Assembly: GCA_001303695.1 (NCBI GenBank)
Contig: LJUC01000011.1
Location: forward strand, 1 to 32,052
DNA from: Phycisphaerae bacterium SM23_30
GTDB lineage: Bacteria; Planctomycetota; Phycisphaerae; Sedimentisphaerales; SM23-30
Reading direction: 5' to 3'
Length of the DNA: 32,052 nt
The translations under genes and the position numbers were made by a program. The notes under the pieces were generated by a model. The model had not been told where the DNA came from. It saw only the letters and a list, made by a program, of their open reading frames with translations, and searched no databases. How positions within the stretch are numbered: the stretch's first letter is position 1; every line of letters starts with the position of its first letter. Of the stretch, positions 4,386 to 21,744 are shown piece by piece.

Positions 4386-6074
4386 TTATTTGAGCCAGGG
4401 GATTTTGAGTTTTTTTTGTCGGGCGATCGCCAGGGCGGTTTCATAGCCGGCGTCGGCGTGGCGCATGATGCCGATACCCGGGTCGAAGGTCAGGACGCGC
4501 TGGAGGCGTTGTTCTTTTTCTTTTTCGCCGGTGGCGACGATGACCATGCCGGCGTGGCTGCTGTAGCCGATGCCGACGCCCCCGCCGTTGTGTACGGAGA
4601 CCCAGTCGGCGCCGCAGGCGACGTTTCCCATGGCGTTAAGGTAGGGCCAGTCGGCGATGGCATCGCTGCCGTCTTTCATGCCTTCGGTTTCGCGGTTAGG
4701 CGAGGCCACGCTGCCGCAGTCCAGGTGGTCGCGGCCGATGACGATGGGGGCCTTGACCTCACCGGAGGCCACCAGTATGTTGATGATTTTGCTGAATTGG
4801 GCCCGCTCGCCGTAGCCCAGCCAGCAGACGCGGGCGGGCAGGCCGATAAAGGGCACTTTCTGCTGGGCCTTGGTGATCCAGCGGTGCAGCATCTTATCAT
4901 CAGGAAACATTTCCAGCAGGGCCTTATCGATTTTGAGTATGTCTTCGGGTTCGCCGGATAATGCCGCCCAGCGGAAAGGGCCCTTACCCCGGCAAAAAAG
5001 GGGTCTGATATAAGCGGGCACAAACCCCGGGTAAAGAAAGTTGCCCTTATCGTCTCTGATTTTTGCCCCGGCCACTTCCGCCTGGCCCCTTAGATTATTG
5101 CCATAGTCAAAACAAATCGCGCCGCGGTCCTGCATTTGGAGGATGGCATGGACGTGTTTGGCAATCGAGGCGAGGGCTTCTTTTTTGAACCGGGCGGGAT
5201 TTTGGTCTCGGAGTTGGAGTTTTTCCTGCAGATTACCTTCGGGATAATAATAGAGTAAATCGTGAGCTGAGGTTTGATCGGTGATGACGTCGGGGGTGAT
5301 GTTTCTTTTAACCAGTTCGTCGGCCACGGTGGCGATATTGCCCACCAGGCCCACCGAGAGGGGTTTTTGATTATTTTGGGCTTTTTCGACCTGGGCGAGG
5401 GCGTCGTCGAGATTATGGCAGATGAGGTCGCAATAGCCCTCATCAACTTTCTGCTGCACCCGCTCTTCAAACACCTCCACGATCAGGGCCGCGCCCTGGT
5501 TCATGGTAACGGCCAGGGGTTGGGCGCCCGACATATTTCCCAGGCCGGCGGTGAGGACGAATTTTCCTTTGAGGTCGCCGCCGAAATGGGCGTCGGCCAG
5601 GGCGGCAAAGGTTTCGTAGGTCCCCTGCAGAATCCCCTGGGTAGCGATGTAAATCCAACTGCCGGCGGTCATCTGGCCGTACATGGTGAGGCCCATCTGG
5701 TCATACCTGTCGAAATTTTCCTGGGTGCTCCAATGGGGGACGATATTAGCATTGGCCATTAAAATCCGCGGGGCATAGGGATAGGTTTTGACGACGCCGA
5801 CGGCTTTTCCTGATTGAATCAGGAGGGTTTCGTCGGGTTCGAGTTGTTTCAAGGCTTTTACGATGTTATGGTACTCGCGCCAGTTGCGGACGGCCCGGCC
5901 GGCGCCGCCATAGACGATCAGTTCGTCCGGGATCAGGGCCAGGTCGGGATCGAGGTTATTCTCCAGCATCCGGAGGGCGGCTTCGGCTTCCCAGGTCTTG
6001 CATCTCAATTCGGTACCCCGGGCCGCTTTGACGGGTGCGGGGGGTTTTTGGTCCATGTACATAGGTCGGGTCAT
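4386..6074 (-). CDS. hutU: Urocanate hydratase
   Basis: A 562-residue urocanase, the NAD+-dependent cytoplasmic enzyme that hydrates urocanate to imidazolone-5-propionate, the second step of histidine degradation. Family signatures run along the whole length: [15 protein letters not shown] near the N-terminus, [40 protein letters not shown] (NAD-binding region), [17 protein letters not shown] and [18 protein letters not shown]. Cys417 in [14 protein letters not shown] sits where the catalytic cysteine of the family is expected (about 410 in the Pseudomonas enzyme). The start ATG overlaps the hutH TGA as ATGA. I see no truncation or frameshift. Confidence 0.98.
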
Positions 6075-7621
6075 TGCAGTCTCCCTATTTGATTTTCGAC
6101 GGCCTGCAATATTTCGCCGCTCCTTATCATCTCCCTGACCATGTCCATATGGGGATACATCACCTTATCTTCGGCGAGATAAGGTACTTTTTTTCTCATG
6201 GTCTGGTGGATTACCTTTACCCCGCGGCCCAAAGGGGTTTCCCGGAGAAAATCGAGGGCCTGGCCGGCACAGAGCATTTCAATGGCTAAGACGTGCTCCA
6301 CGTTATCTTTTATTTCACGGGCTTTGCGGGCGGAGATGGTTCCCATGCTCACGTGATCTTCCTGGTTGCCGGAGGTGGGAATCGAATCGACCGAGGCCGG
6401 ATGCGCCAGCACCTTGTTTTCCGATACCAGAGCGGCGGCGGTGTACTGGGTGATCATGAACCCGGAATTGATGCCGCCCTGCTCGATCAGGAAGCCGGGC
6501 AGGTGTTGGCGGACCATAGGATTGATGAGCCGATCGATCCTTCTTTCGGAGATGTTGGCGATTTCACAAAGGCAAATAGCCAATAAATCCATCGCCACCG
6601 CAATGGGTTGGCCGTGAAAATTACCGCAGGATAAAAATTCCTCCGTTTCGGGAAAGACCAGAGGATTGTCGGTGACGGAGTTGCATTCGACGGTTACCAC
6701 TTTGCGTACGTGTTCGAGGGTATCGCGTGAGGCCCCGTGCACGGGGGGAGTGCAGCGGAGCGAATAAGCGTCCTGACCGCGGTCGGGCACGGCGGTATCC
6801 CGTCCCTGGAGCAGGGTTCTGAGGTTGGCGGCGCTTTTAATTTGACCGGGGTGGGGTCTAAGAAGATGGATTCTTTCGTCAAAGGCCTTATCGACGCCTT
6901 TTAAGGCGTCGATAGTCATGGCGGCGACGATGTCGGCGGTTTTGACCAGCACTTCCGCGTCGTAAACGGTCATGGCCGCTATGGCGGTCATGACCTGGGT
7001 GCCGTTAATCAGGGCCAGGCCTTCCTTGGCGTCCAGTTCAATCGGTTCGATGCCGGCTTTTTTCATGGCCTCGGCGCCGCGGAGCAGTCGGCCCCGGTAA
7101 TAGGCCTGGCCTTCGCCGATCAACACCAGGGTTAAATGGGCCAGGGGCACCAGGTCGCCGGAGGCGCCGACCGAGCCCTTCTGGCGGATATAGGGGTGAA
7201 CGCCGGCGTTTAACATGTCGATTAAGGTCTGAACCGTTCTTAGGCGAATGCCGCAATGACCGCTGGCGAGGGTATTGGCCCTTAACAGCATGATGGCTCT
7301 GACGATCTCTTCGGAGAAGGGTTCGCCCACGCCGATGGCATGGCTGATAATCAGGTTTCTCTGGAGTTTTTTTACTTCATCGGGCAGAACCACTTTGTCG
7401 CTGAAGGCGCCAAAACCGGTGGTGACGCCATATACTATTCGTTCCTGCTGGATAACTTTTTTTACCGCTTCTTCTCCTTTTTTTATGTTAGCGACGGCTT
7501 GGGGGGCGAGGACGACTTTTGCGTTATGGCGGGCCCCTTTGACAATATCTTCTATGGTGAGGGATTGGGCGTCGATCACCACGGCGGGGAGAGAATCAGC
7601 GGGGCGATTGGATTCGATCAT
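6071..7621 (-). CDS. hutH: Histidine ammonia-lyase
   Basis: A 516-residue histidase that deaminates L-histidine to urocanate and ammonia in the cytoplasm, the entry step of the pathway. The Ala-Ser-Gly triad that cyclises to the MIO electrophile is residues 153-155 ([14 protein letters not shown]). The active-site tyrosine loop is [13 protein letters not shown] (63-75). Other conserved blocks are [28 protein letters not shown] and [13 protein letters not shown]. The ATG at 7619-7621 has AGGA 8 nt upstream. It is the first protein gene of the minus-strand run and sits 66 bp downstream of tRNA-Arg on the same strand. No HutC/HutP-type regulator or clear operator is visible. Confidence 0.98.
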
Positions 7622-7661
7622 TTGTTGTTCCTGAAATTATTGGGGGGGCTAAGCGCCCGCC

Positions 7662-7678
7662 CTCCAGCCAACCTGGAG
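7662..7678 (-). other. Small hairpin just downstream of tRNA-Arg
   Basis: On the minus strand CTCCAG, five loop bases, then CTGGAG form a perfect 6-bp stem starting 9 nt after the mature tRNA 3' end. No T-run follows, so it is not a convincing intrinsic terminator. It may mark 3' processing of a tRNA-hut transcript, or be incidental. Confidence 0.35.
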
Positions 7679-7687
7679 TTAATGAAG

Positions 7688-7760
<73 letters not shown>

Positions 7761-7841
7761 CCGTGGCGCTCTGGTTATTTGAGCAGCTTCGATACTGAAA
7801 GGCTAACGACGAAGCGTCAATTTGTCAAGCACTGGGCACGA

Positions 7842-8981
7842 TTAATACCGGGGCAGCATTTTTTTGACGATTTGGGCGACTTTGGCGGCGGCGCCGGGTT
7901 GGGTAATGGGTTTTACCAGTTTTTGCAGGTTGAGGCGGATCTGCCGGAGGGCTTTTTCGTCGGCCAAGAGGGCCAAGGCTTTTTCGGCCACCTGATCCTC
8001 CTGGCGGTAAAAAGGCATGTATTCGGGCACTAACTCTTTTTGGGCTAATATGTTAACCAACGAGAGGTATTTAATCTTCACCACCCATCGGCCCACCAGG
8101 TGCCATTGCAGGGGATGAACGTAATATAAGATGATCATGGGGCAATTTTGCACCGCCACTTGCAGGGTTGAAGTTCCCGAAGCCACCAGGGCCAGATCGG
8201 CGTGCCGCACGGCGGCCTCGATGCTGGTGGGGCGGATGTCAATATTGAGATCAGGATCAGCGTTTCTGCGCATGGTTTCTGCTTTACTTTCATCGGGGGC
8301 GCAACTGACAAAGCGGGCCCGGGGATATTTTTTGCGGATGGCGTCGGCGATTTGCTGCATCGACGGCCACAGGTGTTTGATTTCGTGAGCGCGGGAGCCG
8401 GGCAAAAGGGCCACCAGGGGAAAATTCAACTCGTCCGTGGGCGTCGGCTCGAGGGCTTCAAACTGCCGATCATCGTCGAATAAGGGATGCCCCACATACA
8501 CGGCGCGGATGCCGCGTTCTGTAAACCATTGCTGTTCAAAAGGTAATATACACGCCACTTGATTGGTCCATTTACGCAGTTTTTTGATCCGCCAGCTTCC
8601 CCAGGCCCAGAGCTGCGGGGCGATATAATAAAGCACCGGTATGTCGAGCCGGCGGGCGGCCTTGGCGACGTGAAAATTCCAGGCCGGTGAGTCCACCACC
8701 ACTACCAGGTCGGGCCGCTGTCGGAGAAAGTGTTTTTTTAGACGTCGCAGCAGTTGGTAATAAAACCCGAATCCGCCGACGGCATGGGCCAGCATGGCGC
8801 TTCTTTCGACCAGGTTTTCTAACAGTTGACAACCCTCATCGGCCATCGCCTTACCCCCCAGACCCACGAAACGAAGGTCTTGGGCCTCGATTTTTAGGCG
8901 CCGAATCAGCCGGGCCGTGTGGGCGTCGGCACTGACATCGGCCACGCTGAAGAAAATGGTCCGTTTGTTCTCCAGAATCAT
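7842..8981 (-). CDS. lpxB: Lipid-A-disaccharide synthase
   Basis: A 379-residue GT19 family enzyme. It joins UDP-2,3-diacylglucosamine and lipid X to form the lipid A disaccharide at the inner membrane, so the organism should make a lipid A type outer membrane. Recognised signatures are VVVVDSPAWNFHVAK, YYIAPQLWAWGSWRIKK, LPGSRAHEIKHLWP, VASGTSTLQVAVQNCPM and SLVNILAQKELVPEYM. The length is normal (about 380). One oddity is that the N-terminal donor-site motif, normally GExSGD, reads ADVSADAH at residues 14-21. The gene is followed by tRNA-Arg 81 bp downstream and is divergent from the DUF1080 fusion gene at 9217. No other lpx genes are near. Identity is secure, but the altered N-terminal motif leaves activity slightly open. 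Confidence 0.93.
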   Translation of the reverse strand: MILENKRTIFFSVADVSADAHTARLIRRLKIEAQDLRFVGLGGKAMADEGCQLLENLVERSAMLAHAVGGFGFYYQLLRRLKKHFLRQRPDLVVVVDSPAWNFHVAKAARRLDIPVLYYIAPQLWAWGSWRIKKLRKWTNQVACILPFEQQWFTERGIRAVYVGHPLFDDDRQFEALEPTPTDELNFPLVALLPGSRAHEIKHLWPSMQQIADAIRKKYPRARFVSCAPDESKAETMRRNADPDLNIDIRPTSIEAAVRHADLALVASGTSTLQVAVQNCPMIILYYVHPLQWHLVGRWVVKIKYLSLVNILAQKELVPEYMPFYRQEDQVAEKALALLADEKALRQIRLNLQKLVKPITQPGAAAKVAQIVKKMLPRY

Positions 8982-9114
8982 ATCCGATATGCAATCATTT
9001 TAGGCTAGACTTGTCAAGATTTCACTGTCAGCGGTCGTAGAGATGCAAGATTACGTCGGGGGCCGGCGGGGCGGGGCTTTGTCCGCTTTTGTCTTATATC
9101 GAGGGAGAGTTCAG

Positions 9115-9142
9115 TTGACAGGGGGGATTTTATAGCAATAAT
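9115..9142 (+). promoter_or_regulatory. Candidate sigma70-type promoter for the DUF1080 fusion gene
   Basis: A perfect TTGACA (9115-9120), a 16-nt spacer and AATAAT (9137-9142) lie in the gap between the divergent lpxB and 9217 genes. This implies a leader of about 70 nt before the start codon. The match is by eye only, and promoter rules in Planctomycetota are poorly known. Confidence 0.45.
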
Positions 9143-9216
9143 GACGGGTATCTGAGAATGGAGAAAAAATTGACCTGTCGAAACTTTTTATAATATTTTC
9201 AGAACAGGAGGCAAAA

Positions 9217-11250
9217 ATGAACAACTGGGCGACCGCAGTAATATTGTTTTTGTTGGTGGGTTTTTCATGTTCGGCAGGGTCGGGTCAATTGCTACCGCTA
9301 AGCAGCCATCCGGATACCCAGGGCTGGCAGGATCTTTTAGCGGAGGATTTATCGAACTGCCAGTTCCGGGAGGAGACCTGGGTGCTGGAGGAGGGAGTAT
9401 TGACCCGTAAAGGCGGGGATTATATCTGGACCAAGGACAGGTACGGCGATTTTATCCTCGATCTGGAATATAAGCTGGAAAAAGGCGCCAACAGCGGGGT
9501 GTTTGTGAGGACCGGCAGCATACGCAACTGGCTCAATACGGCCATTGAGGTTCAAATTCACGATACTACGGACGGGACGAAATACGGCATGTGCGGGGCG
9601 ATTTACGACTGTCTGGCGCCGACCAAAGATGTGACCAAACCCGCCGGACAGTGGAATCGCCTGACGATCACCTGCAAGAAAAACAAGATCTACGTATTAA
9701 TGAACGGGGCGCAGATTATCGATATGGACCTGGACATGTGGACCGAAGCCGGTCGCAATCCGGACGGGACGAAGAATAAATTCCGCACGGCGTATCGGGA
9801 TATGTCGCGGGAAGGTCATATCGGCTTTCAGGATCACGGCGATCCGGTGTGGTTTCGCTATATCAAGATAAAGCCGCTGCCCGAAGGGATCGTGGAGCAT
9901 CCCGATACGGATTATTACGACGGCTGGCGTTTGGCGACCCAGGCCTATTCTTTCAATCGTTATACGTTTTTCGAGGCCATTGATAAGACGGCCGCGCTGG
10001 GCCTGGACCGGATCGAGGCCTATCCCGGCCAGCGTTTAAGCCCGGAACACCCCGGGGCGGGCATGGTGCACACCATGTCAGCCGATCTGCGCCGGGCCGT
10101 CAAAGAGAAATTAAAAGACGCCGGGATTAAGTTAATCAATTACGGCGTGGTAAGCCTGCCCAATGACGAAGCCCGCTGCCGAGAGGTGTTTGATTTCGCC
10201 CGCGAGATGGGAATCGAAACGATCGTATCGGAGCCCCCGGAAGAGGCCTTCGAGATGATAGACAAGCTGTGCCAGGAATACCGGATCAAAGTGGCGATCC
10301 ACAACCATCCCCGGCCGTCACATTATTGGAATCCGGAGACGGTACTGAAAGCGTGCGCGGGGCGGAGCAAATGGATCGGGGCCTGCGCCGACACCGGCCA
10401 CTGGGTGCGCTCGGATCTGGATCCTCTAGAGTGTTTGAAAAAATTAGAAGGCCGTATTATCAGTCTGCATTTCAAGGAGATCGACGAGGGGCACGATGTA
10501 ATCTGGGGAACGGGACCAAACCGGGCGACAGCACTGCTGGAGGAGCTGCACCGTCAGAAGTTCAGAGGCGTCTTCTCCATTGAGTATGAATATCACTGGA
10601 CCACCTCGCTGCCGGAGATACGCGGCTGCGTGGAGTACTTTAACGAGGCGGGCGGCAAATTGAATCCGACGGGCTGGCGCGATCTGATTAAGCCGGATAT
10701 GTCCAACTGCGTGTATAAGGAGGGCGGCTGGACCTATAAAGAAGGAGAACTCTCGGTCGAAGAGCACCGGGGCGATTTCTTTATCAAGGAGAAATTCGGC
10801 GATTTTATCCTCGATGTGGAATTTAAGGTTCCTCCCCAAGGCAACAGCGGAGTGGTGATCCGCTCCGGGGTGATCGGCAATACCGATGACTGGCTGCATG
10901 AGGCGATTGAGGTGCAAGTATATGATACTTACGGCAGGGCGGTGAACAAGAACTGCTGCGGCTCGATTTACGATTGTCTGGCGCCGAGCAAGAACATGGC
11001 CAAGCCGGCGGGCCAGTGGAATCATTTCACCATTACCTGCATAGACAACAAGATTTATATCGTGATGAACGGGGAGCAGATTATCGATATGGACCTGGAT
11101 CTATGGACCGTGCCCGGCCGCAATCCGGACGGCGGCAAAAACAAGTTCAAAAAGGCCTACAAGGACATGGCCCGCACCGGTTATATCGGCTTCCAGGAAC
11201 ACGGCGATGAGGTTTGGTATCGGAATCTGAAGATCAAACCCCTGCAGTAA
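9217..11250 (+). CDS. Secreted DUF1080-TIM barrel-DUF1080 fusion (3-keto-glycoside/sugar-active)
   Basis: A 677-residue secreted protein with three domains. After a signal peptide (about residues 1-23) comes a DUF1080 (3-keto-disaccharide hydrolase, concanavalin-like) domain at about 35-226. A xylose-isomerase-like sugar isomerase/epimerase TIM barrel follows at about 231-481, with likely metal-site residues in SEPPEEAFE, AIHNHPRP, CADTGHW, LHFKE and FSIEYEYHW. A second DUF1080 domain spans about 485-677. The two DUF1080 copies are clearly duplicates: both hold YDCLAP(T/S)K, KPAGQWN, NGxQIIDMDLD and GRNPDG. AGGAGG lies 5 nt before the ATG. DUF1080 proteins are linked to cleavage of 3-oxidised glycosides; the substrate here is inferred, not shown. 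The serine-hydrolase lipoprotein follows 38 bp downstream. Confidence 0.88.
   Translation: MNNWATAVILFLLVGFSCSAGSGQLLPLSSHPDTQGWQDLLAEDLSNCQFREETWVLEEGVLTRKGGDYIWTKDRYGDFILDLEYKLEKGANSGVFVRTGSIRNWLNTAIEVQIHDTTDGTKYGMCGAIYDCLAPTKDVTKPAGQWNRLTITCKKNKIYVLMNGAQIIDMDLDMWTEAGRNPDGTKNKFRTAYRDMSREGHIGFQDHGDPVWFRYIKIKPLPEGIVEHPDTDYYDGWRLATQAYSFNRYTFFEAIDKTAALGLDRIEAYPGQRLSPEHPGAGMVHTMSADLRRAVKEKLKDAGIKLINYGVVSLPNDEARCREVFDFAREMGIETIVSEPPEEAFEMIDKLCQEYRIKVAIHNHPRPSHYWNPETVLKACAGRSKWIGACADTGHWVRSDLDPLECLKKLEGRIISLHFKEIDEGHDVIWGTGPNRATALLEELHRQKFRGVFSIEYEYHWTTSLPEIRGCVEYFNEAGGKLNPTGWRDLIKPDMSNCVYKEGGWTYKEGELSVEEHRGDFFIKEKFGDFILDVEFKVPPQGNSGVVIRSGVIGNTDDWLHEAIEVQVYDTYGRAVNKNCCGSIYDCLAPSKNMAKPAGQWNHFTITCIDNKIYIVMNGEQIIDMDLDLWTVPGRNPDGGKNKFKKAYKDMARTGYIGFQEHGDEVWYRNLKIKPLQ
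9711..11099 (+). repeat. 24-nt exact in-frame repeat marking the duplicated DUF1080 domains
   Basis: The same 24 bases occur at 9711-9734 and 11076-11099, starting GCAGATTATCGATATGG. The two copies are 1365 nt (455 codons) apart and in the same frame. They encode the core QIIDMDLD strand of both DUF1080 domains. This supports an internal gene duplication, or gene conversion, rather than two separately acquired domains. Confidence 0.85.
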
Positions 11251-12766: not shown

Positions 12767-14146
12767 ATGAATAAAGGAAAAGGTGAGAAATCCAAGATGG
12801 ATCGGCGGGACTTTTTGCGTTCCACGACGGCGGCAGGGGCGTCATTGGTATTGACGCCGGTGGTTTTCAGCCAAGGCCCCCAGGATAAAGCGGAGGAGAT
12901 CAATGTGGCCCTTTTGGGAGCGGGTCGGCAGGGTCAGACGTTGTTAGAAGCGTGTCATAATATTCCCGGCGTGCGTTTTCGGGCGGTGTGCGACATCTGG
13001 ACCCAGTACAATCAACGGATTGCGGCGGGTCGGCTCAACGCCCGTTACAAATTACAGGGATATGATCCGGTCAACACTTATGAGGATTACCGGGCGATGC
13101 TGGACAAGGAAAAGGACCTCGACGCGGTGATAGTGTCCACCCCCGACTTTTGCCACGCCGAACACACCATCGCCTGTCTGCGGGCGGGCAAGCACGTCTA
13201 TTGCGAAAAGGAGATGTCGAACACCCTGGAGGGCGCCCGGGCCATGGTGAGGGCCGCAAAAGAAACCGGTAAACTGCTGCAAATCGGTCATCAGAGGCGG
13301 AGCAGTCCGCGTTATCTTTTCGCTCTTAACCGGATTATCAAAGAAACCGGAATTTTAGGCAGGATCACTGCGGTTAACGGCCAATGGAACCGCAGCAAAT
13401 CGGCCTGCGGCGAGCTGGAGGTGGCCAAACGATACTATATTGATGAAGCCCTGCTGCAAAATTACGGCTATGAGTCGATGAAACATTTTCTTAACTGGCG
13501 TCTGTTTAAGGGGCTGGGGGGCGGTCCCATCGTCGATCTGGGCTCCCACCAGATCGATATTTATAACTGGTTTCTGGGGGCGCTGCCCAAATCGGTGCTG
13601 GCCGGGGGAGGGGTGGATTACTGGAGTGACTGGGAATGGTATGACAATGTGATGGCGATTTACGAATACGACACCGCCGACGGGCCGGTGCGGGCCTTTT
13701 ATCAAACTTTGACCACCAGCGGCAGCCGGGGATACTTCGAGAACTTTATGGGCGACCAGGGCACCCTCGATATCTCCGAGCACAAAGCGGCGGTCTATCG
13801 TGAGGTGTATTTGCTGAAGGATGCCTGGGACGAGTGGGTCAAGAAAGGTTATTTAACCGAGCCGGCGGACAAGGAATTGGAAGTGGCCGTCAAAGAAGAG
13901 GGGGCCGAATTAAACGTGGCCGAGTCGCCGCCGCCGCCGAGGTATGATTTTACGGTGATGCTGGACAAACCCTTCCATCAGCCCCACCTGGAAAACTTCT
14001 TCGATGCCGTTGGGGGCAGGGGCCATCTCAACTGCCCGCCGGAGGTCGGCTATGAAACCGCCGTGACGGTGCTGAAGGTGAATGACGCCGTGGCGGCCGG
14101 GGAGAAATTGGAATTTAAGCCGGACGAATTTAAGGTGGAGGGGTAA
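12767..14146 (+). CDS. Tat-exported Gfo/Idh/MocA family oxidoreductase
   Basis: A 459-residue NAD(P)-type sugar dehydrogenase. The ATG at 12767 has GAGGA 8 nt upstream. A TTG seven codons earlier is less likely, and an ATG at 12797 just before the Tat motif is possible. Residues 12-19 (DRRDFLRS) with the hydrophobic stretch after them form a twin-arginine signal, so the folded, cofactor-loaded enzyme is exported. The Rossmann motif GAGRQG is at 51-56, the catalytic-type EK is E147-K148 (CEKEMS), and DLGSHQIDIYNWFLG is the usual C-terminal domain helix. The family oxidises or isomerises sugars with tightly bound NAD(H). It heads the run with the haem protein and DUF1080 genes, which suggests carbohydrate 3-oxidation in the periplasm. 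The substrate is unknown. Confidence 0.9.
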   Translation: MNKGKGEKSKMDRRDFLRSTTAAGASLVLTPVVFSQGPQDKAEEINVALLGAGRQGQTLLEACHNIPGVRFRAVCDIWTQYNQRIAAGRLNARYKLQGYDPVNTYEDYRAMLDKEKDLDAVIVSTPDFCHAEHTIACLRAGKHVYCEKEMSNTLEGARAMVRAAKETGKLLQIGHQRRSSPRYLFALNRIIKETGILGRITAVNGQWNRSKSACGELEVAKRYYIDEALLQNYGYESMKHFLNWRLFKGLGGGPIVDLGSHQIDIYNWFLGALPKSVLAGGGVDYWSDWEWYDNVMAIYEYDTADGPVRAFYQTLTTSGSRGYFENFMGDQGTLDISEHKAAVYREVYLLKDAWDEWVKKGYLTEPADKELEVAVKEEGAELNVAESPPPPRYDFTVMLDKPFHQPHLENFFDAVGGRGHLNCPPEVGYETAVTVLKVNDAVAAGEKLEFKPDEFKVEG

Positions 14147-14170
14147 ATCAGAGACTGGGTAGATAAATAG

Positions 14171-16102
14171 ATGCAAGCGAGTCGGAGGCCAATACACTTT
14201 GCCGGTTTGGTGCTTTTGGCTTTAGCGGCGGCAGGGGCCGCCCAGAGCCAGAAACAAGAAAAAGAGATGCTGGGGGACGGCAATGACGGCAATCGGGCGG
14301 TACCGGTTCACCTGATGGAGTTGCTGGTTCAGGTCTTCGCAGGGGAAGATCCCGAGAAGATAGACCCCCTCGAAGAGCCGGCCCTGCCCTTTTCTTTGCG
14401 CCATACGTGCAGCGAGTGTCACACCTACGAATTCGTCCAGAGCGGCTGGCATTTTAATTCATCTCAAGCAGAGATTAAGCCCGGTCGTCGGGGCGAGTGT
14501 TGGGTCTGGGCGGATGCCGTCACCCGCACGGTGCTTCCGATCTCGGGTCGCGGCTGGCCCGGGACGTACCAGCCCCAAAAGGTAGGGCTGAGCGCCTGGC
14601 GGATGATTAAACTCTTCGGCCGGCACATGCCCGGCGGCGATTACGGCCAGATATATGGAGAACAGTTGGAGGGTCTGGATCGACTGACAGTCTCGGGTGA
14701 GTTTGAGATTAACTGTTTGGCCTGTCATAACGCCGATCGCCGACAGGACCAGAGCGAAGCGGCCCTGCAGGTGATGCGGGAGAACTTCCGGTGGGTACCC
14801 GCCGCCGCCAGCGGGCTCGCCCAGGTGACGGGGATGGCTTCCACGTTACCCGCCGCCTATGATGTTTTTATGGGATTACCCCCGGATAATACCGGCCAGC
14901 AGCCGCCGTCAGTGCATTACGACATGAGCAGATTTGATCGGGAAAATCGGGTATTTTTTGATATAGTAAGGCGGGTGCCGAACAACCGCTGTTATTTCTG
15001 TCATTCGACGCAGGTGCTGGGCATGGATCAGTTCAACGAATGGCGGCGGGACGAGGACGTGCATATCACGGCCGGTTTGATGTGCGTGGATTGTCATCGA
15101 CACGGGGTCGATCACATGATGGTTCGCGGCTATGAGGGCGAAGAAAGGTCCAGCACCCCGCCGACGGTTTTGTCTCTCACCTGCCGCGGATGCCATCTGC
15201 CGGAGGATGATAACGGCGCAGAGTCCCAAACCGGAATCGGCAGGCTGGGGGCCCCTCGGCCCAGGCACCGGGGGATACCGCTGGTTCATTTTGATAAGCT
15301 GACGTGTACGGCCTGTCACAGCGGGCTGAGGCCCGGCGATCAGACCGGCCTGGTGCGCACGCCCCGAATACATCGATTGGGGCTGCACGGCGTGCATCGT
15401 CAGGATTACATGCTGCCCCATGTGCAGACGCCGGTATTTGTCAGGAATTCCGAAGGTAAAATTGAACCGACCAAATTGATCTGGCCGGCGTTCTGGGGTC
15501 TGATGAAAGACCAGGAGATAACACCGCTGGACGTGGAAGTGGTCAAAGAAAAAGCGGGTGAGATTCTCAATACCGAAACCGCCGAGAGGCGAGACGATTG
15601 GCCTGTTTTGACCGAAGAGCAGATAGCCGGAACTCTGCCATTGCTGGGAGAGTTGGACGATCATTCCGAAGCGGTTTATATTGCAGGCGGGAAATTGTAT
15701 CGCTTGGATGAGCGGGGTGAGATTGTGGCCGCCGAACACGAGGCAGCCCGGCCTTATAGCTGGCCGGTGGCTCATGACGTCAGGGGAGTGCAGCAATCGC
15801 TGGGCTATAACGGCCGCTGCACCGACTGCCACAACACGGATTCTGCGATTTTCTTTGGCAAAGTGGCGGTGGATACGCCGGTACAAGGCCAGGAAGGCGG
15901 CCTGAAATATATGTATGAAATGGAGGGCGAAGACGGCACCTACTGGCGGATGTTCAATGCTTCGTTTGTCTTTCGTTCGTTCCTGAAAACGGTCGGACTG
16001 ACGGTCTGCGGGGTTATATCGGCAATATTACTGCTTTTCGCTCTGGCAGGGCTCAAACGGGTATTATCGATTTTTGGTCCGGAGGTTACAGAGGAAAAAT
16101 AG
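14171..16102 (+). CDS. Seven-haem cytochrome c, membrane-anchored
   Basis: A 643-residue periplasmic multihaem protein. Residues about 8-25 form a signal peptide. Seven CxxCH haem-attachment motifs begin at Cys80, 182, 274, 305, 338, 379 and 550 (CSECH, CLACH, CYFCH, CVDCH, CRGCH, CTACH, CTDCH). Many extra histidines between 294 and 417 could be distal ligands. A transmembrane helix at about 605-628 anchors the C-terminus, with a short cytoplasmic tail. No cataloged enzyme signature is evident, so electron transfer is more likely than a known reductase. The start has a weak ribosome site and lies 24 nt after the oxidoreductase stop. The next gene, a small membrane protein, starts directly after the TAG. 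The pair looks like an electron conduit between quinone pool and periplasm. Confidence 0.9.
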   Translation: MQASRRPIHFAGLVLLALAAAGAAQSQKQEKEMLGDGNDGNRAVPVHLMELLVQVFAGEDPEKIDPLEEPALPFSLRHTCSECHTYEFVQSGWHFNSSQAEIKPGRRGECWVWADAVTRTVLPISGRGWPGTYQPQKVGLSAWRMIKLFGRHMPGGDYGQIYGEQLEGLDRLTVSGEFEINCLACHNADRRQDQSEAALQVMRENFRWVPAAASGLAQVTGMASTLPAAYDVFMGLPPDNTGQQPPSVHYDMSRFDRENRVFFDIVRRVPNNRCYFCHSTQVLGMDQFNEWRRDEDVHITAGLMCVDCHRHGVDHMMVRGYEGEERSSTPPTVLSLTCRGCHLPEDDNGAESQTGIGRLGAPRPRHRGIPLVHFDKLTCTACHSGLRPGDQTGLVRTPRIHRLGLHGVHRQDYMLPHVQTPVFVRNSEGKIEPTKLIWPAFWGLMKDQEITPLDVEVVKEKAGEILNTETAERRDDWPVLTEEQIAGTLPLLGELDDHSEAVYIAGGKLYRLDERGEIVAAEHEAARPYSWPVAHDVRGVQQSLGYNGRCTDCHNTDSAIFFGKVAVDTPVQGQEGGLKYMYEMEGEDGTYWRMFNASFVFRSFLKTVGLTVCGVISAILLLFALAGLKRVLSIFGPEVTEEK

Positions 16103-16639
16103 ATGTTTCGCATACTGGCGGCTATAGGTATCGGGGGGGCCCTGGCGGGGGCGGCGGCGGGCTACTACGTGCAGAAAAGATCACCGACCGAAAAGAGGCC
16201 CGGTAAGCCCTTTGCAAACAGGATTCAGGGCCTTGAGGGGCTGATTTACATCGTGACAGGTTTGAGCATTTTTGGTTTAGCATTTACGGGTTTTTGGGCG
16301 GCCCTCATAAGAGGCCAGGCCAATACGCGGTATCTGCTGGTAGTGCACTGCACTTTGGCGCCGATTTTCTGTTTAAGTTTGGCGGCGACTCTGGTATTTT
16401 GTGCCCAGAGGTATAAATTTGATAAAAGCGATTGGCGCGGCGTTCTGCGGGCGAGCGGCTGGCGCAAGGTTTGTTTTTGGGTGCTGATGGCCGCGGCTTT
16501 GCCGGTGATACTGTCGATGGTGCTGAGTATGCTGCCGCTTTGGGGGACTGTGGGCCAGGAGTTTTTGTATCAAGTGCACCGGGGCAGCACCTTGATACTG
16601 ACCATGGCGGCCATTGGTTTTATTGGTTTATCAAGATAA
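16103..16639 (+). CDS. Small membrane protein, putative b-type cytochrome partner
   Basis: A 178-residue protein with about five hydrophobic segments (near 4-22, 47-67, 78-100, 122-147 and 160-177). Two histidines sit at helix ends on the sequence (His82 in LLVVHCTLAP and His159 in YQVHRGSTLIL), which would suit axial ligands of a b haem, as in cytochrome b561 or DUF4405-like proteins. I do not recognise a specific family. The ATG follows the cytochrome c stop with no gap, with GAGGAAAA as ribosome site inside that gene. The most likely role is quinol dehydrogenase or anchor for the seven-haem protein. A larger out-of-frame reading from 16432 overlaps it, and its upstream part is not coding. 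Confidence 0.72.
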   Translation: MFRILAAIGIGGALAGAAAGYYVQKRSPTEKRPGKPFANRIQGLEGLIYIVTGLSIFGLAFTGFWAALIRGQANTRYLLVVHCTLAPIFCLSLAATLVFCAQRYKFDKSDWRGVLRASGWRKVCFWVLMAAALPVILSMVLSMLPLWGTVGQEFLYQVHRGSTLILTMAAIGFIGLSR

Positions 16640-16662
16640 TTATACCTCCGGGAGAAGATACG

Positions 16663-17427
16663 ATGCAAAGGCTGATAATGATCGTAAACGTAGTGATTTT
16701 AGCATGGCTGGTCTTGTTGTTGATAATGCCATCTTGCCAGGAGGACAAGCCGGCGCCGGCGTATGAAACACACCAACAAGAAAAGTCCTTGGAGCCCGCT
16801 GCGGCCAGACTGAATGCGCCGCCGGAGGGTTTTACGGCGTTGTTTAACGGCAAGGACCTGAGCGGCTGGAAAGGTTTGGCGGCTGATCCTGTGAAACGGG
16901 CCCGGATGAATCCGGCGGAACTGGCGGCGGAGCAGGAAAAAGCGGACGCCAAGATGCGCGAAAACTGGAGAGTTGAGGAGGGGGTATTAGTATTCGACGG
17001 GCAGGGCGATAGTTTATGCACCCTGAAGGACTACGAGGATTTCGAGCTGCTGGTCGATTGGAAGATCCAAGCCGAAGGCGACAGCGGCATTTATCTGAGG
17101 GGCAGCCCTCAGGTGCAGATCTGGGACCCGGCCCAATGGCCGCAGGGATCGGGCGGGTTATACAATAACCAGAAGCCCGAAAATCCCAGCGATCCTCTGG
17201 TGTGTGCGGATAACCCGATTGGCCAGTGGAACACTTTTCGCATCAAGATGATCGGCGAACGGGTGACGGTGCACCTTAACGAGGTGCTGGTGGTTGACAA
17301 CGTGGTCATGGAAAATTACTGGGAAAGGGATAAACCTATATACCCCACCGGGCAGATCGAACTGCAGTCGCATAATTCGCCTTTATATTTTAGAAACATA
17401 TTCATCCGTGAAATACCCCGGGGGTGA
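16663..17427 (+). CDS. DUF1080 (3-keto-disaccharide hydrolase) lipoprotein
   Basis: A 254-residue lipoprotein. GGGAG precedes the ATG at 16663; the reading frame is open much further upstream but only overlaps the previous gene. The hydrophobic residues 5-22 and MPSC give lipidated Cys25. The single DUF1080 domain spans about 55-254, with the typical opening GFTALFNGKDLSGWKG, the middle FELLVDWKIQAEGDSGIYLRG, and the ends GQWNTFRIKMIGERVTVHLN and GQIELQSHNSPLYFRNIFI. It is of the classical single-domain type, unlike the diverged double copies in the 9217 gene. The family is tied to cleavage of 3-keto-glycosides. It lies 23 bp after the membrane protein and is probably the hydrolase or lyase partner of the exported oxidoreductase. 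Confidence 0.9.
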   Translation: MQRLIMIVNVVILAWLVLLLIMPSCQEDKPAPAYETHQQEKSLEPAAARLNAPPEGFTALFNGKDLSGWKGLAADPVKRARMNPAELAAEQEKADAKMRENWRVEEGVLVFDGQGDSLCTLKDYEDFELLVDWKIQAEGDSGIYLRGSPQVQIWDPAQWPQGSGGLYNNQKPENPSDPLVCADNPIGQWNTFRIKMIGERVTVHLNEVLVVDNVVMENYWERDKPIYPTGQIELQSHNSPLYFRNIFIREIPRG

Positions 17428-17527: not shown

Positions 17528-18484
17528 ATGCATAATATTCTAAAATGGCACTTATCACTGGCGACGGTTTTGCTGCTGGCAGGTTTGGCGACGATGCCGT
17601 CATGTAAAAAATCAGAGCCCGGCGGCGCTGCGGAGAAAGAGGGAACATCGGACGAATTATTACAGGAATCCGAGAGTCATGCGGATCAAGCCCGGGGAGA
17701 AGCACAATCAGAAAGGGCGGAAGAATTGATCCGGCGGGCGGAAGAAGAAGCAGCGAAGACCCTGGATGAGGCCCTGCAGAAGCTGCAGGAGTTAGAGGCC
17801 CAGAAGAAGCAGGCCGAAGAAGAGATTAAAAAGGATTTAATCCAGCAGACCGAAAAAAACCTCTCGCCCCCCGTAGAAAAGCCGACGGAAGATCTGGTGC
17901 CGCTGGAGATAGAGCTGCCGCGGCCGATGTTTGTGGGCACGCCTCCCAACACCAAGATCGACCGGGTGGAAAATCCGCTGGGGAAGCCTCGGCCGCCGCT
18001 GCCGGTGCCGGAAGGCACGGTAAACGCATCCAAAGGAAAACCCGTCACCAGCAGTGACGAAAATCCCATTATCGGCGACCTGGACCAGATCACCGACGGC
18101 GACAAGGAGGGCATCGACGGCAACTGGGTGGAACTGATGTACGGCGTTCAATGGGTGCAGATCGATTTACAGGACAGCTACGAGATTTATGCGGTGGTGT
18201 TCTGGCATTTTCACATGCAGCCCTGGGTATTTCGCGACGTGGTGGTTCAGGTGTCCGAGGATGCCGATTTTATTAACGCGACCACGCTGTTTAACAATGA
18301 CTACGATAACTCGTCCGGCCTGGGGGCCGGTGAAGATCTGCATTACGTTGAGACCAGCGAGGGCAAGCTGGTGGAGGGCAAAGGGACCCGGGCGCGTTAC
18401 GTCAGGCTGTACAGCAACGGCAACACCGAGAACGATTCCAATCAATATATCGAAGTGGAAGTGTACGGCAAACCGACCAAATGA
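17528..18484 (+). CDS. Lipoprotein with coiled coil and discoidin-like (F5/8 type C) domain
   Basis: A 318-residue lipoprotein, with AAAGG 7 nt before the ATG. Hydrophobic residues 9-22 and MPSC give lipidated Cys26. Residues about 44-110 are highly charged, rich in Glu, Lys and Gln, and fit a long coiled coil (EEAAKTLDEALQKLQELEAQ). A proline-rich linker follows, then a galactose-binding, F5/8 type C-like beta-sandwich at about 175-315, with ITDGDKEG, WVQIDLQDSYEIYAVVFWH and RARYVRLYSNG. Such domains usually bind carbohydrate or surface polymers. It looks like a stalked surface-binding protein. Its stop overlaps the next start as ATGA. The true ligand is unknown. Confidence 0.85.
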   Translation: MHNILKWHLSLATVLLLAGLATMPSCKKSEPGGAAEKEGTSDELLQESESHADQARGEAQSERAEELIRRAEEEAAKTLDEALQKLQELEAQKKQAEEEIKKDLIQQTEKNLSPPVEKPTEDLVPLEIELPRPMFVGTPPNTKIDRVENPLGKPRPPLPVPEGTVNASKGKPVTSSDENPIIGDLDQITDGDKEGIDGNWVELMYGVQWVQIDLQDSYEIYAVVFWHFHMQPWVFRDVVVQVSEDADFINATTLFNNDYDNSSGLGAGEDLHYVETSEGKLVEGKGTRARYVRLYSNGNTENDSNQYIEVEVYGKPTK

Positions 18485-20043
18485 AGCGCTGCTTAATCAT
18501 TTGCGCTGTCGTTTTGGCTGCGGCGTCGGCTCTGGCCCTGCGCCTGCCGCAATTAGCGCTGCGTCCCATGCACACCGACGAGGCGGTGCACGCCGTCAAA
18601 TTCGGCGAACTGCTGGAGGAGGGGCGATACCGTTACGATCCTTACGAATATCACGGACCTACGCTTTATTATTTTACGCTGCTTTCAGCCTGGTTGAGTT
18701 CGGCCGAAAATTTTAGCGAAGTAACCGAGGTTACTCTGCGCATTATTCCGGTCATATTCGGCGTGGGTACGGTGGTGCTCTTATTACTACTGGCCGACGG
18801 TTTGGGCCGCGGCGCCGCGATAGGGGGGGCGCTATTGACAGCCATATCGCCGGCGATGGTTTTTTACAGTCGCTACTACATTCACGAAACCCTGCTGGTG
18901 TTCTTTGGCTTTTTGGTAATCGCCGCCGCCTGGCGTTATAGTCGGAGCGGATCAACAGGCTGGCTCTTATTAGCCGGCGCCGGCGTCGGCCTCATGCACG
19001 CCACCAAGGAAACCTGCATCATCGCTTTTAGCGCCATGTTCGCCGCCTTGCTGATCGTTAAAATACTAAATCGTGTTCCGGGCCAAAAAGGACCTCCGGA
19101 TAAATCAGCCATCAAAGTTAAAACCAAACCCCTTATCGCGGCTTTAATCGCGGCGCTTTTGGTGTCATTTACTTTATTTTCCTCCTTTTTCACCCACCTG
19201 AGCGGACCCTGGGATTCCCTCGCCGCCTACTGCGCTTACTTTCACCGTGCCGACACCGCCGTGGGCCACCATCACCCCTGGTACTATTACCTTAAAATGC
19301 TGATATTCACTAAAAATGACCTGGGCCCCTGGTGGAGCGAAGGGCTGATCGTGATTCTATCGATGGCGGGGTTGTGCGCCGCTGTGATCGGTAAAGGAGC
19401 GGCAAAAAGCAATATTCGCCTGCTGCGTTTTTTGGTCTTCTATACCTTGATAATGACAGCGGCATACTCGATCATCCCATACAAAACTCCCTGGTGCCTG
19501 CTGGGATTTTGGCACGGGATGATTATTCTGGCGGGTGTGGGAGCAGCGGCGCTGGTGAGAATGATGCCGTTTATAGCGGGCAGAGCAGCAATTTGCCTGT
19601 TGCTGATAGCCGGCGTTGCTCAATTGACATACCAGTCGTACCGGGTGAGCTTTCGTTTCTTCGACGACCCACGGAATCCTTATGTGTACGCCCACACAAT
19701 TAGCGATACGGTGCGGTTAGCAAAGTTAATACAAGATACGGCCTCTGCTCATCCGGCGGGAAATAATATACCGATAAAAGTTATTGCTGAACCTGACAAC
19801 TATTGGCCTTTGCCCTGGTATTTCCGCCGCTTCGGCCGCGTCGGGTACTGGCACGAACGGCCCGCGCAGATTCAGGCGCCGATTGTCATCGCTTCGGATT
19901 CTCTCCGGCCGCCGGTCGAAAAAAATCTTCCCGGCGCTTATCATTACGAAATTTTCGGACTTCGGCCAAACGTAATTTTGCATGTTTACATTCAAAAAGA
20001 CCTGTGGGATGCTTATCTCAAAAGTAAACGAAATCCCCGATGA
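18481..20043 (+). CDS. Agl23-like (TIGR03663) polytopic membrane protein, GT39-type
   Basis: A 520-residue integral membrane protein with about ten hydrophobic helices. The N-terminal loop carries RPMHTDEAVHAVKFGELLEEG, with D33-E34 as the acidic pair typical of lipid-linked GT-C sugar transferases. YRYDPYEYHGPTLYYFTL is the hallmark of the TIGR03663 group (flippase activity-associated protein Agl23). The C-terminal part, about 405-520, is soluble and includes IKVIAEPDNYWPLPWYFRR. By family it should act in transfer or flipping of lipid-linked sugars for surface glycans, though the exact reaction is not settled. The ATG overlaps the previous stop as ATGA, and its own TGA overlaps the apbE start the same way. 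Confidence 0.85.
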   Translation: MKRCLIICAVVLAAASALALRLPQLALRPMHTDEAVHAVKFGELLEEGRYRYDPYEYHGPTLYYFTLLSAWLSSAENFSEVTEVTLRIIPVIFGVGTVVLLLLLADGLGRGAAIGGALLTAISPAMVFYSRYYIHETLLVFFGFLVIAAAWRYSRSGSTGWLLLAGAGVGLMHATKETCIIAFSAMFAALLIVKILNRVPGQKGPPDKSAIKVKTKPLIAALIAALLVSFTLFSSFFTHLSGPWDSLAAYCAYFHRADTAVGHHHPWYYYLKMLIFTKNDLGPWWSEGLIVILSMAGLCAAVIGKGAAKSNIRLLRFLVFYTLIMTAAYSIIPYKTPWCLLGFWHGMIILAGVGAAALVRMMPFIAGRAAICLLLIAGVAQLTYQSYRVSFRFFDDPRNPYVYAHTISDTVRLAKLIQDTASAHPAGNNIPIKVIAEPDNYWPLPWYFRRFGRVGYWHERPAQIQAPIVIASDSLRPPVEKNLPGAYHYEIFGLRPNVILHVYIQKDLWDAYLKSKRNPR

Positions 20044-20999
20044 ACCAAGACGCTGATAAATTTTCCCTTCTCGACGATAGTGCGATCAAGCTCCCCCTGC
20101 ATCGTTTTGCTCACGAGGCCATGAACACTATTTTCGGCGTCTCCGTTTTAGGCGGCAAGATTGAATATGCCCAATCGGCGGCCCGCGCCGCCTTCGAGGA
20201 AGTGGACCGTCTCGAACGTTTGTTGAGCCGCTTTATCGAGGGCAGCGACGTCTGGCGGATTAATCATCTTGAGGCGGGTCACTGGGCGCCGGTGAGCACT
20301 GATACGCTCCGTTGCCTGCAGCTGGCAGAGGGAATATGCGATGAAACAAACGGGGCGTTTGATATAAGCATCGGTCGGCTTTTGACCTATTGGCGTAAAT
20401 CGAACCGCCCGGTCGATCGCGACGGCGTACGGGCATTCAACGAAGCAGCGGTGCGAACGGGGATGGAACTGCTTCAAATCAGCGAAAGGGCCTGTGGGGT
20501 GGGCGTTAAGGCCCGGGGGGTGCAAATCGATCTGGGGGGCATCGGCAAAGGCTACGCTGTCGATCGGATGATGGAACTGCTGCGGGAATGGGATATGGGA
20601 ACCATCCTGACCCATGGCGGTCAGAGTACGGTAAGGGCTACAGGTTCGATTTGCGACCATAAAGGTTGGCCTTTAACGTTGCGCAATCCGGAAAAGCCGT
20701 CGGAGGTATGGGTGAGATTTGATTTACGGGATCAGTCATTAAGCGCCTCGGGCCGGCTGATTCAGGGAGAACACATTGTCGATCCGCGCACCTGCGAGCC
20801 CGCGCGCGGCAAAGTCCGCGTGTGGGTTCTGGCGAAATCAGCCGCTCTTTCCGACGCTGTCTCTACCGCCTTTATGGTCATGTCGCCCGACGAAATAGAA
20901 CAATACTGTCAAAACCATAAAGACGTCGGCACTATCCTGGCCTCGACCACCTCAGAAGGATGCCAAATGCGGCATATGGGGGCGGATTTCACTAAATGA
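20040..20999 (+). CDS. apbE: FAD:protein FMN transferase, ApbE family
   Basis: A 319-residue ApbE-type enzyme, which moves FMN from FAD onto Ser or Thr of target flavoproteins. It shows the family core: EAMNTIFGVSVLG, EEVDRLERLLSRF, GAFDISIGRLLTYWR, QIDLGGIGKGYAVDRM (163-177), HGGQSTVRATG, HIVDPRTCEPA (245-255) and SDAVSTAFMVM, where D272 and T276 should bind Mg2+. There is no signal peptide or lipobox, unlike many periplasmic ApbE proteins, so it looks cytoplasmic as encoded. The start overlaps the previous stop (ATGA). No target with the Dxx(S/T)GAT flavinylation motif is in the window, so its substrate lies elsewhere. Link with the nearby cytochromes is only a guess. Confidence 0.93.
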   Translation: MNQDADKFSLLDDSAIKLPLHRFAHEAMNTIFGVSVLGGKIEYAQSAARAAFEEVDRLERLLSRFIEGSDVWRINHLEAGHWAPVSTDTLRCLQLAEGICDETNGAFDISIGRLLTYWRKSNRPVDRDGVRAFNEAAVRTGMELLQISERACGVGVKARGVQIDLGGIGKGYAVDRMMELLREWDMGTILTHGGQSTVRATGSICDHKGWPLTLRNPEKPSEVWVRFDLRDQSLSASGRLIQGEHIVDPRTCEPARGKVRVWVLAKSAALSDAVSTAFMVMSPDEIEQYCQNHKDVGTILASTTSEGCQMRHMGADFTK

Positions 21000-21024: not shown

Positions 21025-21744
21025 TTAATTTCTTAAAGCGCGTTTCAAGGCTATCAAATCCAACATACTACGAACCGACGCTGATAAAAAGCGAAAGCGC
21101 GTGTCGCGGTCACTGCGCCATTCAAGGGGAAACTCGATTATTCGATATCCCCGTTTTTGCGCCCGCAGAATGATTTCCACGTCGAACATAAACCTCTCAG
21201 AGAGGCACCGGGCATAAAGCTCCCGCGCCACTGCGCCGCGATACATCTTGAAGCCGCACTGACTGTCGGTGATATGGGGCGGGATGCCGATAAAATGAAC
21301 CGCCAGCCGGCGAAAAAGGCGCGAGCTAATGCGGCGGTGGAAAAAATGCCGGTGGACGACGACGCTTTGCGGCAATTTTCTCGAGCCGTGGGCGATTTCG
21401 CATAAGCCGCTGCGTAAAAGTTCCAGACCCCGCAGGGCAAACCGATAGGGTACGCAGAGTCCGCTGTCGGCGAACATCACATAATCGCCGGTGCTTTGTT
21501 TAATACCGCTGCGGACGGCATATCCTTTACCCTTGTGAGGTTTTAGACGAATAACTTTTTTTACTATCCCCGCCGGAACAGGAACCTTCTGCGCGACGGG
21601 ACTCGTTCGGTCGCCGCTGCCGTCATCGACCACAAGGATCTCGCCGGATAATTTGTTTTCTTTGAGGAAAGCTGCGGCGGCGTCTATATCATGCCCGATC
21701 TTCCTGGCTTCGTTATATGCCGGTATGACAATTGAAAGGTCCAT
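21025..21744 (-). CDS. Family 2 glycosyltransferase (polyprenyl/dolichyl-phosphate type)
   Basis: A 239-residue GT-A fold glycosyltransferase, similar to dolichyl-phosphate glucosyl/mannosyl transferases but without C-terminal membrane helices. It shows SIVIPAYNEARKI at the start, VVDDGSGDRT (D40, D41), KGKGYAVRSGIKQSTGDYVMFADSG, DSQCGFKMYRG and FMFDVEIILRAQKRGYRI. The metal-site DxD, usually DAD, reads D93-S-G here, an atypical form. Its ATG overlaps the stop of the outer-membrane factor gene as TAATG, so it is translationally coupled to the export operon. It ends 25 bp from the convergent apbE gene with no visible terminator. A lipid-linked sugar donor product is inferred from the family. 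Confidence 0.88.
   Translation of the reverse strand: MDLSIVIPAYNEARKIGHDIDAAAAFLKENKLSGEILVVDDGSGDRTSPVAQKVPVPAGIVKKVIRLKPHKGKGYAVRSGIKQSTGDYVMFADSGLCVPYRFALRGLELLRSGLCEIAHGSRKLPQSVVVHRHFFHRRISSRLFRRLAVHFIGIPPHITDSQCGFKMYRGAVARELYARCLSERFMFDVEIILRAQKRGYRIIEFPLEWRSDRDTRFRFLSASVRSMLDLIALKRALRN

Follow-up and report, generated by a model that had tools for sequence, protein, structure and literature searches.

Among the described systems that most resemble the locus reported here is the Bacteroides pathway of glycoside 3-oxidation, BT2157-BT2160 (Nasseri et al. 2024, Nature 631:199, as cited in PMC13273386). In Agrobacterium, the flavoenzyme GlycDH oxidises glycosides at C3 with artificial electron acceptors, and the products are then cleaved by sugar-isomerase-like enzymes (PMC10628242). 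Outside the cytosol, electron transfer systems flavinylated by ApbE have been described (PMC8238504, PMC11334425), the main texts of which mention neither Gfo nor Planctomycetes. The former of these papers also describes cytochrome/flavin substitution in respiratory enzymes, and it interprets partial Nqr/Rnf systems as a path by which cytosolic NAD(P)H supplies an extracytosolic flavin with electrons (PMC8238504).

The window analysed here is a stretch of 32,052 nucleotides from Phycisphaerae bacterium SM23_30 (contig LJUC01000011.1), and it carries a gene cluster that shares parts with each of these systems. As in the Bacteroides pathway, Gfo/Idh/MocA dehydrogenases are found alongside DUF1080 enzymes. 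The best NCBIfam family for the dehydrogenase of the window (hereafter Gfo) is in fact that of the Bacteroides BT_2158 glycoside 3-dehydrogenase (NF058561), but the match, of 88.7 bits, does not reach the cut-off of 750, and the BT2157-BT2160 cluster is not known to encode an ApbE, a multihaem cytochrome or an anchor like FdnI. The likeness to the Agrobacterium GlycDH operon and to the glucoside 3-dehydrogenases of the LacABC type would lie in the oxidation at C3 followed by cleavage. LacABC relies on a flavoprotein of the GMC type together with a cytochrome c, whereas the window pairs a dehydrogenase of the Gfo/Idh/MocA family with a cytochrome of seven haems, which also sets it apart from GlycDH. 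A small membrane protein of the cluster is kin, in fold and in sequence, to FdnI, the gamma subunit of formate dehydrogenase-N, although its partner is the heptahaem cytochrome and not an iron-sulfur subunit. The presence of an ApbE gene in the cluster, and the interchange of cytochrome and flavin modules between genomes, recall the ApbE-flavinylated systems; however, neither an FMN_bind domain nor the usual [ST]GA[ST] acceptor site occurs in the core proteins of the window cluster. Finally, the glucose-fructose oxidoreductase of Zymomonas is an exported enzyme of the Gfo/Idh/MocA family and a solved relative of the window Gfo, and it is not known to need a cytochrome partner.

The module is real, widely conserved and undescribed in the open papers that we searched. 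An earlier sequence-only reading of the window had seen in it a possible undescribed respiratory glycan-degrading system; the link to quinones and the membership of DUF1080 have turned out weaker than claimed. If electrons do pass between Gfo and the haems, the large Gfo family, whose sugar chemistry relies on bound NAD(P), would have a branch that works in an extracytoplasmic electron transport chain. This would offer a new view of sugar oxidation and redox balance in uncultured Planctomycetota and their relatives, one order of which has been described as strictly fermentative, and it makes testable the question of which electron acceptor serves in cells seemingly unable to make menaquinone.

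A conserved trio of genes

Four adjacent genes were the starting point of the analysis:

12767-14146, + strand: Tat-exported Gfo/Idh/MocA oxidoreductase (reading frame, Pfam/NCBIfam, alignment and orthologue motifs)
14171-16102, + strand: heptahaem cytochrome c (seven CxxCH motifs, N-terminal signal peptide, C-terminal membrane helix)
16103-16639, + strand: five-helix membrane protein, an FdnI-like cytochrome b relative akin to PF01292 (model, profiles and alignment)
16663-17427, + strand: lipoprotein of the DUF1080 (3-keto-disaccharide hydrolase) family (PF06439, E=6.2e-44)

Reading frames, Pfam matches and motifs confirm the identities first proposed for these genes, their common strand and the gaps of 24, 0 and 23 bp between them. 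A scan of GTDB species genomes yielded 256 confirmed relatives of the cytochrome, and the best 80 of these were taken as the locus set. Gfo lies directly upstream of the cytochrome in 73 of the 75 loci where this was testable, and the small membrane gene directly downstream of it in 70 of 74. The Gfo-cytochrome-membrane gene trio is a strongly conserved order, far beyond chance, and the idea that the exported oxidoreductase comes with a multihaem cytochrome of its own and with a b-type-like anchor is supported. The cytochrome and the membrane protein are even read in one frame in L003/L031 and L009/L039, and probably also in L107. We considered whether the adjacency could be a mere effect of the many Gfo copies in these genomes (from 19 domain matches in the window's own genome to more than 100 first-look candidates) and rejected it: the adjacent copies belong almost without exception to one clade and share about 45-65% identity with the window Gfo, against about 25-35% for other copies nearby, and a single protein among the 19 matches of the own genome belongs to the module clade.

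Of 148 related genomes, most of them from the order of the window organism, 98 carry the cytochrome, which is thus present in 52 of 83 genera, while a phylum-wide sample gave it in 35 of 294 genomes, some of them merely weak partial matches. By the labels that submitters gave to these MAGs, the best 80 of the 256 relatives fall in about eight phyla, namely Planctomycetota, Verrucomicrobiota, Calditrichota, KSB1, Omnitrophota, Bacteroidota/Ignavibacteriota, Deferribacterota and Acidobacteriota. In a cytochrome tree made by a quick method and rooted at its midpoint, the eight rows from Verrucomicrobiota group together as a single clade that branches among Planctomycetota, as does Omnitrophota, so the module has probably moved between phyla. 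Across the 148 genomes, the cytochrome was counted in 96 (two weak matches of the 98 were left out), the module-type Gfo in 105, and a protein with an F5/8 type C domain (F5/8C), whose gene lies further downstream in the window, in 109. Cytochrome and Gfo coincide in 92 genomes, Gfo and F5/8C in 103, and cytochrome and F5/8C in 95, that is, in all the cytochrome genomes but one (Fisher p <1e-19 for these co-occurrences, with shared ancestry ignored).

Proteins of the trio

The domains of the window Gfo assign it to the Gfo/Idh/MocA family, both the Rossmann part (PF01408, E=2.7e-21) and the C-terminal part (PF22725 and PF02894, which also exceed their Pfam cut-offs) being matched. A GxGxxG motif is visible in the alignment, and the catalytic EK and DxGxHxxD motifs appear as EKEM in 64 of 65 orthologues and as DLGSHQ[IV]D in 63 of 65. 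The twin-arginine signal reads RRDF in the window, and a strict RRxF motif is present in 62 of the 65 full-length relatives; TIGR01409 exceeds its cut-off for this signal, and the Pfam TAT_signal profile falls slightly under its own. The closest solved kin are the DgpA enzymes, whose substrates are glycosides, and glucose-fructose and aldose-aldose oxidoreductases are also found among the solved relatives.

Nearly all members of the cytochrome family keep the seven CxxCH motifs. Eight further histidines are invariant among 57 sequences, so that bis-His ligation is possible for all seven haems, an arrangement that would fit electron transfer and not catalysis. In the AlphaFold2 model, residues 589-635 form the C-terminal helix and residues 288-365 have a pLDDT below 50; Foldseek gave no match with this model. 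The one match among solved proteins is to NrfA, and it is so short and weak that we rejected the cytochrome as a relative of nitrite reductases. No match over the whole protein to NrfA/NrfH or to any other multihaem enzyme was found by sequence or by fold, the haem core being poorly modelled.

The small membrane protein is modelled by AlphaFold2 as five long helices, with a mean pLDDT of 89. The profile of its family finds E. coli FdnI (E=4.6e-8), which is also the top Foldseek match of the model (prob 1.00, E 0.035), and PF01292 is matched by 41 of 50 relatives with E<=0.05, though not by the window protein. His82, kept in 49 of 50 relatives, and His159, kept in all 50, align with FdnI His57 and His155, which we take to be the ligands of haem bP. 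The position of FdnI His18 is mostly occupied by Tyr or Phe in the family, and that of His169 is a histidine in just 29 of the 50 relatives. The four histidines for two haems b, as in FdnI and PF01292 proteins, were not found in the family, where His82/His159 is the sole conserved pair, and therefore one haem b, not two, is to be expected, probably near the periplasmic face. From these alignments, the protein is classified as an FdnI-type cytochrome b of reduced size with a single conserved His pair.

A conserved unit that reaches beyond the DUF1080 gene

With 150.7 bits against a gathering score of 26.8, the DUF1080 lipoprotein is a clear member of PF06439. Its place is another matter. The sequence-only reading had named conserved synteny of all four families as a check. 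A four-gene respiratory glycan-degrading unit, with DUF1080 as a fixed partner and with electrons entering the quinone pool, is an explanation that we find very doubtful. Relatives of DUF1080 do occur somewhere in 51 of the 80 loci, in many of them close ahead of Gfo, which speaks for this explanation; a place no more than 2.5 kb beyond the cytochrome gene, however, is kept in 1 of 65 loci. The synteny is thus that of the trio, DUF1080 was rejected as a fixed fourth gene, and the window copy is a local addition outside the conserved order. Close orthologues of this lipoprotein (68-75%) are encoded in L031, L033, L070 and L094.

The constant partners are other genes instead. The module had been thought to end at 17427, which is too early at the 3' end, since the run of + strand genes continues to 20999:

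17528-18484, + strand: lipoprotein-like protein with an F5/8 type C (galactose-binding) domain, a core partner (Pfam)
18481-20043, + strand: Agl23-like membrane protein of the PMT family (TIGR03663, profile match)
20040-20999, + strand: ApbE-family FAD:protein FMN transferase with no signal peptide (PF02424, E=8.7e-50)

Among 37 loci with long flanks, F5/8C is present in 30, the PMT gene in 28, ApbE in 29, and the three together in 28. The conserved unit reaches 20999 and adds F5/8C, PMT and ApbE to the trio, and these partners go along with Gfo and the cytochrome through the 148 relatives. Its layout varies to some extent: the Verrucomicrobiota loci have the F5/8C-PMT-ApbE block upstream of Gfo and not downstream, L121 has ApbE inserted between the Gfo and cytochrome genes, and L056 and L077 have ApbE after the trio, where F5/8C and PMT were not seen. 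The window ApbE carries the conserved motifs DLGGIGKGYAVD, HIVDPRT and DAVST, and the stand-alone ApbE proteins, judged by eye, have no signal peptide. The PMT and ApbE genes of the window overlap by 4 bp, and in six loci (L042, L048, L064, L065, L066 and L081) they are read as a single frame, which joins a glycosyltransferase-like protein to a flavin transferase.

Upstream of the trio, one more gene of the window is a probable pathway neighbour:

9217-11250, + strand: DUF1080 - AP_endonuc_2 - DUF1080 protein (domain matches; in relatives frequently right before Gfo)

This protein unites two families that are tied to the 3-keto pathway.

Loci with a different electron-transfer partner

Thirteen of the 148 genomes hold a module-type Gfo and no heptahaem cytochrome. 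In L117 (genome G056; 7483-11037, minus strand), the module-type Gfo is followed, in one run, by a 370-aa octahaem cytochrome and a module-type ApbE, and no FdnI-like anchor is present in this run. In L129 (genome G089), Gfo heads an operon with two Rnf-Nqr subunits, an NqrF-like protein, an NqrB/RnfD protein and a fusion (5422-6690, minus strand) of F5/8C to an NqrC-like FMN_bind domain with the site DGITGASKTT; NqrA is absent from the operon, which is followed by MFS, F5/8C and PMT genes. Each replacement is a single case among the 148 genomes and stands on a single MAG contig, and together they support a redox link of Gfo. They also match the pattern of cytochrome/flavin substitution already described (PMC8238504). 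An octahaem protein in L118 was considered as another replacement and rejected, as no relative of Gfo adjoins it. In L122-L126 and L130, on the other hand, no haem or Nqr gene adjoins Gfo, which speaks against a redox partner at its side being strictly necessary, and Gfo can apparently do without one; Gfo relatives of this sort mostly keep F5/8C.

Loci of this last kind, several of which have Gfo, F5/8C and ApbE with no haem or Nqr gene beside Gfo, are what would be expected if Gfo were self-contained, oxidising one sugar and reducing another with its bound NAD(P), while the cytochrome pair served another step of the same pathway and the linkage reflected nothing but pathway membership. Such chemistry has precedent in the glucose-fructose and aldose-aldose oxidoreductases among the solved relatives, and it sits well with core proteins that have no usual flavin site. 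Nevertheless, the Gfo-cytochrome adjacency is near-absolute across phyla, and L117 and L129 place a different electron-transfer system beside the same Gfo, so we rate the self-contained enzyme as a serious but rather improbable alternative. The proposed electron exchange between Gfo and the haems has good support from gene context.

A possible route for the electrons

We therefore hold, with moderate confidence, that the module encodes a periplasmic glycoside dehydrogenase that exchanges electrons through a dedicated haem relay. The Tat-exported Gfo would most likely be a glycoside (C3) dehydrogenase that keeps its nicotinamide cofactor firmly bound, and reducing equivalents would pass between it and the membrane-tethered heptahaem cytochrome c, itself paired in the membrane with the one-haem FdnI-type cytochrome b. 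The keto-glycoside would be cleaved by the DUF1080 or AP_endonuc_2-type enzymes encoded nearby, and the F5/8C lipoprotein, the Agl23-like protein and ApbE could be accessory or maturation parts.

NADH normally requires a flavin to feed one-electron carriers, and direct reduction of haems by NAD(P)H is not usual. The presence of ApbE suggests that a flavin participates, and this flavin would bridge the two-electron step and the one-electron step. A core protein with the usual flavin site was looked for and rejected, there being no [ST]GA[ST] among the core families, and in G005, a relative that carries the module and has only one match to ApbE, no FMN_bind protein was found genome-wide. Given the fusion of F5/8C to FMN_bind in L129, the first candidates for a flavin acceptor would be the F5/8C protein and the Tat-exported Gfo. 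A full chain of this type, where the signal-less ApbE flavinylates one of these two module proteins at a non-canonical site while it is still in the cytoplasm, and electrons from extracytoplasmic sugar oxidation run from NAD through a covalently bound flavin and haem to a non-quinone acceptor in supposedly fermentative bacteria without menaquinone, is an unlikely proposal.

As for the partner in the membrane, electrons had been supposed to go to or come from the quinone pool, which now looks doubtful. Among 16 genomes, the window's own and that of one relative, G005, gave matches to MqnA/MqnD, and none gave MenD above its cut-off. Neither set of markers was found in 12 of 14 carriers of the module, ten of them at least 96% complete, which tells against the four-gene respiratory unit outlined above, even if the MqnA/MqnD matches in the window's own genome agree with it. 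Menaquinone may be the final acceptor in the window organism; most relatives tested seem to have neither of the two known menaquinone routes, so another acceptor would be needed there. The 12 carriers in which these markers were not found are G015, G033, G103 and nine others, G015 and G033 being single-contig genomes with 99% completeness. A genome survey has described the Sedimentisphaerales as strictly fermentative and devoid of an electron transport chain (PMC11266412).

Many carriers look fermentative and lack menaquinone markers, which would also suit a flow in the opposite direction, in which a membrane donor reduces the haems, or the Nqr-like complex of L129, and the exported Gfo passes the electrons on to a keto-sugar or a similar compound that serves fermenting cells as a sink. 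The Nqr/Rnf scheme of the flavinylated systems (PMC8238504), together with the Nqr-like set beside Gfo in L129, points the same way, and this set could deliver electrons outward. We nonetheless regard the reverse flow as decidedly unlikely. The nearest characterised kin of Gfo are glycoside 3-dehydrogenases, and the nearest solved ones act on glycosides; with families that cleave keto-glycosides next door in many loci, this fits oxidation first. Sugar oxidation, the haems carrying the electrons away, is thus the more likely direction for the periplasmic dehydrogenase and its relay.

Other genes around the module

Beyond the 3' end of the conserved unit, the window carries one gene that converges with ApbE:

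21025-21744, minus strand: family 2 glycosyltransferase, convergent with ApbE (family in 23 loci of the set)

In these 23 loci it is mostly found in the same place and orientation as in the window. Near Gfo, 31 of the 80 loci, L067 (8619-10010) among them, encode a permease of some 460 aa with a weak match to PF02133, which was not seen in the window; it is a possible transporter of the sugar or of its product.
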